64,000 nucleotides of DNA from Agrococcus sediminis. GTDB taxonomy: Bacteria; Actinomycetota; Actinomycetes; Actinomycetales; Microbacteriaceae. A program made the translations under genes and the position numbers. The notes beneath the pieces were generated by a model. That model was not told the DNA's origin and did not search any database. It worked only from the letters and a program-made list of their open reading frames with translations. Positions 35,941 to 36,250 of the stretch are shown here, one piece after another. How positions within the stretch are numbered: the stretch's first letter is position 1; each line of letters opens with the position of its first letter. Where the stretch lies: the NCBI RefSeq assembly GCF_007923295.1, contig NZ_VOIR01000018.1, forward strand, positions 1 to 64,000. The letters run 5' to 3'.

Positions 35941-36250
35941 GCCTCGAGCGGCGCCTCCCGCGATCGAGTGGCGCTCCGCGCGATCGAGCGGCGCCCCGCG
36001 CGATCGAGTGGCGCTCCCCGCGATCGAGTGGCGCCCTGCGTGATCGAGTGGCGCTCCGCGCGATCGAGTGGCGGTTCGCGCGATCGAGTGACGCCCGGCC
36101 CTTGCCCTGGCGACATCCGCGATTCCGTCGCGAAGGCGCCACTCGATGTCCGCGGGCGCCACTCGATCCCCGGACCCGCCACTCGATGTCGGGAGGCGCC
36201 ACTCGACCGCCGCGCGCGCCGCTCGGTGTCAGGGGGCGCCACTCGATGCA
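35941..36250. repeat. 20-bp-period array: eight direct plus six inverted copies of a 12-bp core
   Basis: The core ATCGAGTGGCGC occurs in eight units at 35941, 35961, 35981, 36001, 36021, 36041, 36061 and 36081, and inverted in six units at 36131, 36151, 36171, 36191, 36211 and 36231. A 30-bp centre (36101-36130) separates the halves. Seven cores are exact, five have one mismatch and two have two. The 8-bp spacers vary, and no insertion or deletion breaks the period. It occupies most of the 419-bp hisS-eno gap and has no coding frame, since 20 is not a multiple of 3. Function unknown: protein-binding array, cruciform or long RNA hairpin. Confidence 0.9.

Follow-up and report, generated by a model that had tools for sequence, protein, structure and literature searches.

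Our finding that the 20-bp-period repeats between hisS and eno of Agrococcus sediminis recur across the genus, and that arrays of the same type bracket a gene encoding an AbiEi-nuclease fusion protein, suggests to regard the array as a cluster of recognition half-sites for this nuclease, the gene of which is located elsewhere on the same chromosome, with copying of the half-sites proposed in addition; we consider this reading to be probable. Its two components differ in strength. Judged from sequence comparison, the AbiEi-nuclease very probably binds the half-sites directly, and the proposal that it would also drive the copying of the arrays is evenly balanced between right and wrong, being drawn from the analogy with RAYTs and REPINs, from the conservation of catalytic-type residues and from the differing occupancy of sites. 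Our observations comprise the presence and dispersal of the arrays, their position on either side of the gene, the folds predicted for its product, and the covariation of protein and motif. Among the options that a preliminary description of this DNA had listed, a protein-binding array is now the best supported.

Within the window, that is, the whole stretch of 64,000 nucleotides that was analysed, the direct block (35943..36094, plus strand) starts 8 bp after the hisS stop, lies in sense orientation 3' of hisS, and comprises eight 12-bp cores with the consensus ATCGAGTGGCGC and a 20-bp period (starts at 35943, 35963, ... 36083). The inverted block (36136..36247, minus strand) has the same period and comprises six cores (starts at 36136, 36156, ... 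36236). Numbers and length of the cores, their exact 20-bp steps, and the distribution of mismatches (none, one and two in seven, five and two copies, respectively) are as previously described; the centre between the two blocks, however, measures 41 bp (36095..36135, without strand) and not 30 bp. Both neighbouring genes are on the plus strand: hisS (34702..35934) encodes histidine--tRNA ligase (TIGR00442, E 4e-84, with a score of 282.9 bits that is slightly below the curated cut-off of 286.75), and eno (36354..37634) encodes phosphopyruvate hydratase (TIGR01060, E 2e-202). Outside the array, upstream of eno, a CTAGGCT motif (36310..36316, plus strand) is perhaps, as a guess, part of the eno promoter; CTAGGCT or TAGGCT is likewise found upstream of eno in many array-free relatives. 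With up to one mismatch, the 12-mer has no match elsewhere in the 64-kb window, and a scan of the whole window for periods from 10 to 45 shows period 20 at the hisS-eno array alone, and nothing for the other periods not divisible by 3, except 40.

A search of the genome and of related genomes for the core and its period, which had been recommended as a check, agrees with the earlier option of an expanding repeat family: the core is the unit of such a family, dispersed in the genome and in the genus. A two-unit pattern with up to three mismatches yields 93 matches in the whole genome (vs. 1 in a reversed-letter control), constituting 11 loci, one of which represents both sides of one gene, and one stray match (C14:250310); the 660,200-bp contig C1 of this genome carries none of the 11 loci. 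A three-unit TGGCG pattern is present in 14 of the 24 Agrococcus genomes, with at least five matches in twelve of those, in a scan whose reversed-letter control is not silent (39 matches in G162, 30 in G153, 14 in G157, 13 in G158, 11 in G164, 6 in G155, 5 in G152, and 1 each in G156, G159 and G167). We read these control matches as probable GCGGT-core arrays of the GGTCA type, a reading which the GGTCA counts support for G157, G153 and G164. Other genomes exhibit the core variants GGTCACT (G157, G153, G164) and GGCCACT (G049, G150). The hisS-eno interval itself carries an array in 4 of the 24 genomes, so that occupancy differs among species, and the special role formerly considered for hisS or eno is not supported, as many other intergenic sites, at 3' ends or between convergent genes, carry arrays as well. 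Beyond the genus, the window's own two-unit pattern with one mismatch allowed was found in 1 of 150 genomes of the family, namely the window's own, in a draw holding three Agrococcus; the four-unit TGGCG pattern was found in 8 of 398, namely in 4 Agrococcus (10 having been drawn) and in 4 genomes of other genera, three of which look like unrelated or simple sequence.

Several single observations touch on the distribution and growth of the arrays. In G157, all 53 GGTCA matches fall between 2.37 and 2.96 Mb on a chromosome of 2.96 Mb, with the nuclease gene at 2.47 Mb, and the arrays may cluster in one part of the chromosome. About 45 direct 20-bp units, many of them identical, form locus L146 (G152:C1:1554943-1556032), which is a sign of recent expansion. 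Contigs G150:C5 and C7 as well as G151:C7 and C16 start within 20-bp arrays, which probably break short-read assemblies and are, hence, under-counted. In the same family, G039, a genome from another genus, shows 20-bp-spaced TGGCGGGGGTTA-like repeats on several contigs and may hold another 20-bp array.

Looking for a protein family that occurs together with the repeats, as had been recommended, brought us to the AbiEi-nuclease gene, which encodes 293 residues (G000:C13:138085-138963, minus strand, in the window's genome) and is bracketed by direct and inverted blocks of the same arrays located 1 kb apart. The protein matches PF18741 (REase_MTES_1575) and PF04480 (DUF559), both below the curated cut-offs, and is predicted to combine an N-terminal AbiEi-type fold with a C-terminal Vsr/I-Bth0305I (EDxHD homing endonuclease) fold. 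Residues E189, D221, H238 and D247 are invariant in 33/33 homologs and would represent the EDxHD motif, i.e., the predicted active site; PF18741 matches 23 of 33 homologs at E 0.01. Homologs are encoded in all 24 Agrococcus genomes, and 13 of them are close orthologs (at least 74%). In all 13, the gene is accompanied by 20-bp arrays, which the detector places on both sides in 12; for the 13th (G158), cores are found on the other side of the gene, next to a contig end. A response regulator and pyruvate kinase adjoin the gene in 7 of the 8 best-matching Agrococcus loci (L164-L171), with a contig end cutting off that side of the eighth (L168), and in 0 of 70 loci outside the genus; the neighbours identified at the Agrococcus locus are the response regulator, pyruvate kinase (pyk) and DNA polymerase I (polA). 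With the same neighbours across Agrococcus loci, the gene has a constant position within the genus and thus does not look mobile there. At L133 and L143 (G153:C1:216615-217492), the nuclease gene has an internal stop and is split in two, and its 20-bp arrays persist.

For a view beyond Agrococcus, 84,980 species genomes were scanned for relatives, and the 80 loci considered are the best 80 of 466 rather than an even sample. The two flanks of each gene were compared as inverted repeats, with other genes of the same loci serving as controls and 3 of the 80 loci dropped for short flanks. Among these best-scoring relatives, 38 of 67 non-Agrococcus targets reach a score of 16 (vs. 2 of 268 controls), which 29 of the 67 fail to reach, and 33 of 67 reach a score of 20 (vs. 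0 of 268 controls). Most of these repeats are palindromes, composed of two half-sites in inverted orientation: 96 palindromes lie near the gene in 71 kb compared with 81 elsewhere in 674 kb, and a usable palindrome is located beside the gene in 55 of 70 non-Agrococcus loci, with none in the remaining 15. Where a GAG start is readable in both arms, the palindrome spans 54-56 bp in 41 of 43 cases; the fixed dyad register to be expected from such palindromes is not kept at the centres of the Agrococcus arrays. The motif is common to some close relatives, and differs in distant relatives as well as among paralogs of the same species (e.g., L208 vs. L217). In the window's own genome, the paralog L138 is flanked by 57-bp and 55-bp palindromes of GATTGGTCACG; several of 20 more distant Agrococcus paralog loci (L284-L303) also have their own flanking palindromes, with other motifs. 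In Sinomonas atrocyanea (L226), 32-bp-period CGGGTACGCATCTCGTCG repeats flank the homolog, direct then inverted, near 4746-4858 and 5909-6000, and represent another form of array outside Agrococcus.

For two gene-flank motifs, each in one genome, dispersed copies of the cognate palindrome, with arm starts 36 bp apart, were counted. Arthrobacter sp. 35W holds 15 matches, 4 of them being the gene flanks (control 2), and seven other genomes hold 0-2; in this count, values of 4-5 are obtained with the control in two other genomes (G415, G418). Herbiconiux daphne holds 49 matches, again with 4 being the gene flanks (control 2); 19 are found in H. gentiana and 0-4 in eight others. The 25 elements taken from 20 stretches of H. 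daphne had been selected for arms 36 bp apart; without this spacing condition, the offset of 36 occurs in 23 arm pairs, and the other listed offsets once each. The outer 12 bp of these elements are nearly invariant and the loop drifts; 13 of the 25 are located in convergent spacers, and 4 overlap a gene as called by a crude caller.

Protein and motif change together. Within Agrococcus, residue 96 is H, Q or V for TGGCG flanks and R for YGG(T/C)C(A/G) flanks in 21 of 21 classified homologs, the classes having been assigned by hand from flank counts, some of them low, with one mixed locus set aside. Columns 56, 96 and 274 separate the classes perfectly. On the best tree at least 4 class changes are required, 2 of which are forced by supported branches, and a sign test on the tree, with 2 independent pairs on supported branches, is not significant (p 0.5). 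Counts of the GGTCA motif across entire genomes (53 in G157, 28 in G164, 15 in G153, 8 each in G158 and G159, and 0-5 elsewhere) mostly agree with the residue-96 classes. Exceptions are G164, which has an R96-type protein and GGTCA flanks, yet 53 TGGCG triples, and G150, which is of the GGCCA type and yet has a few TGGCG arrays; these mixed motifs may date from a former specificity, or may speak against a relation of one protein to one motif. Across 61 loci, 44 of them outside Agrococcus, with sequences weighted and with permutations that ignore relatedness, the strongest covariation is that of residue 32 with motif position 11 (reached in 0/300 permutations), and the pairs 96-8, 94-6, 52-10 and 104-5 are reached in 8-11/300. 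Without Agrococcus, these five pairs remain in the top seven; 32-11 alone stands out (3/300), the other four are reached in 32-93/300, and the pair of residue 122 with position 4 ranks second (17/300). Residues 32, 52, 94, 96 and 104 are all located in the part that aligns with AbiEi, and 8 of the top ten pairs fall in residues 1-110, which is equalled in 24/300 permutations. Motif distance tracks protein distance (Mantel r 0.35, p 0.0005, 55 loci).

The location of the arrays was evaluated for 39 dispersed sites from nine species, with nuclease-gene loci and one contig-end site left out; five sites with the nearest called gene more than 300 bp away were then dropped, leaving 34. Convergent spacers harbour 19 of these 34, whereas of the 147 further gene pairs that these stretches contain, 17 are convergent (p 1.3e-7). 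Of 32 direct blocks, 27 lie 3' of a gene on the plus strand, and of 31 inverted blocks, 23 lie 3' of one on the minus strand; the direct-then-inverted order is found in 29 of 34 sites, and one arm only in the other 5. With a home-made, crude gene caller, 1 of 35 array blocks (L154) overlaps a called gene, in a check which excludes 13 sites added later. Coding repeats were rejected on account of this near-absence of overlap and of the period of 20, and CRISPR on account of the 8-bp linkers and of the direct-then-inverted order in place of one-way repeats with unique spacers, so that both exclusions made in the preliminary description are borne out. Regarding an origin from phages or plasmids, which was likewise put aside as improbable, the two-unit pattern has 0 exact matches in viral contigs.

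The preference for 3' ends and convergent sites over the baseline is also what one would expect if the AbiEi-nuclease were to bind without copying, i.e., if it acted as a regulator or as a nucleoid or roadblock protein, with the arrays serving as operators at gene 3' ends which stop or insulate transcription or the passage of forks and which grow by ordinary slippage. AbiEi proteins are in fact autorepressors acting on 23-bp inverted repeats, as stated in PMC7319586. We nevertheless consider this alternative to be unlikely: a pure regulator would not need the invariant catalytic-type residues, cognate repeats are present also downstream of the gene and thus beyond its promoter, and occupancy varies among species, as at hisS-eno.

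Quite improbable, in our view, is that the arrays are primarily RNA elements, transcribed into long segmented hairpins which protect or end mRNAs, with the link to the nuclease being secondary. Of the long RNA hairpin formerly suggested for the hisS-eno array, the folding stands (z -11.7 for the predicted structure), and this value, the location at gene 3' ends and the usual direct-then-inverted order would all suit such an element. The ending of hisS transcripts is not supported, since no intrinsic terminator was found at this array, and no Rfam family is matched by the arrays or palindromes in the loci searched. Moreover, one-armed sites exist, and the two arms at hisS-eno of G163 carry different cores, which indicates that the hairpin is apparently not what is conserved; it may be a by-product. 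The bracketing of one gene family and the covariation of protein and motif would also be left unexplained.

Still less credible is a defence or titration role, in which dispersed half-sites would restrain the nuclease or mark self, and invading DNA would free it: the AbiEi fold is an abortive-infection fold, here fused to a nuclease, and there are several sites per genome, but no defence partner is recognised among the identified neighbours at the Agrococcus locus. That the arrays are neutral tandem repeats with no protein dedicated to them, or that they arose in assembly, can practically be dismissed, since, although the contigs beginning in arrays (in G150 and G151) indicate that arrays disturb assemblies, the family occurs in separate species and in genomes assembled as one contig (G152, G157, G162, G165), and the nuclease gene family is bracketed (vs. 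2 of 296 controls).

Recognition followed by copying, the reading that we prefer, could then proceed as follows. A palindromic dyad of two inverted half-sites would have been turned, in Agrococcus, into head-to-tail arrays whose 20-bp period, about two helical turns, would place the half-sites on one face of the DNA. The AbiEi domain would bind the half-sites, and the nuclease domain would, under some condition, nick or cut at these sites. Existing arrays would then be lengthened, and new ones seeded in 3'-end intergenic spacers, where they are tolerated, by repair, slippage and ectopic copying. It is tempting to go further and to speculate that a second, independent REP-type system exists, in which an AbiEi-homing-endonuclease fusion, widespread among Actinobacteria, would generate and disperse its own half-sites and retarget itself through changes in a few residues (32, 52, 94, 96 and 104), with Agrococcus amplifying the half-sites into 20-bp arrays in place; this wider proposal is tentative, its chances lying slightly below even.

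The nearest counterpart is the REPIN-RAYT system. RAYTs are described as single-copy genes, inherited vertically, that replicate REPINs (PMC8049555), and REPIN-RAYT systems are called REPtrons (PMC3733652). Common to both are short dispersed extragenic palindromes and a gene which is fixed in place within a genus and bracketed by its own repeats (outside Agrococcus, in 38 of 67 cases). Here, however, the enzyme is an AbiEi-nuclease fusion without HUH/Y1 transposase, and the Agrococcus form consists of 20-bp half-site arrays. REP driven by a RAYT was rejected, as the HUH Y1 transposase profile PF01797 matches in 0 of 24 Agrococcus genomes, with control matches in 5 of 14 known genomes. As in I-Bth0305I and Vsr, an EDxHD catalytic-domain fold is predicted for the Agrococcus protein, but the DNA-binding part is of the AbiEi fold; and in contrast to I-Bth0305I, the gene is located between two complete sites or arrays, apparently instead of inside one site, several dispersed sites exist, and no intron was seen. 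The predicted AbiEi fold is shared with the AbiE type IV toxin-antitoxin system, for which binding to 23-bp inverted repeats is described (PMC7319586); in contrast to AbiE, the protein is fused to a nuclease, no AbiEii partner is recognised among the identified Agrococcus neighbours, and repeats flank the gene on either side and also occur at other places in the genome. The profile PF18741 is shared with the large HEPN/Vsr proteins carrying an MTES_1575 REase, which differ in being giant multidomain proteins and for which the available portion of PMC3710099 makes no mention of repeats. Finally, plasmid iterons likewise are direct sites located about 20 bp apart on one face of the DNA; the present arrays, however, are chromosomal, occupy many loci in direct-then-inverted order, and are paired with a nuclease instead of a Rep protein.

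A search of open-access full text retrieved no report recognisable as linking DUF559, MTES_1575 or AbiEi nucleases with dispersed repeats. If our reading is correct, (i) a class of actinobacterial intergenic palindromes and arrays that has lacked an explanation would have its partner protein named, and (ii) REP-like sequence populations could accompany an enzyme that is unrelated to transposases. The system would combine a DNA-binding fold of toxin-antitoxin systems with that of homing endonucleases, and its natural set of protein/DNA-site pairs may allow one to read a recognition code. The window also contains a separate repeat family at 43886-44111, with a 114-bp period, about two copies, and palindromic GGTCGAGGAGC...GCTCCTCGACC elements.
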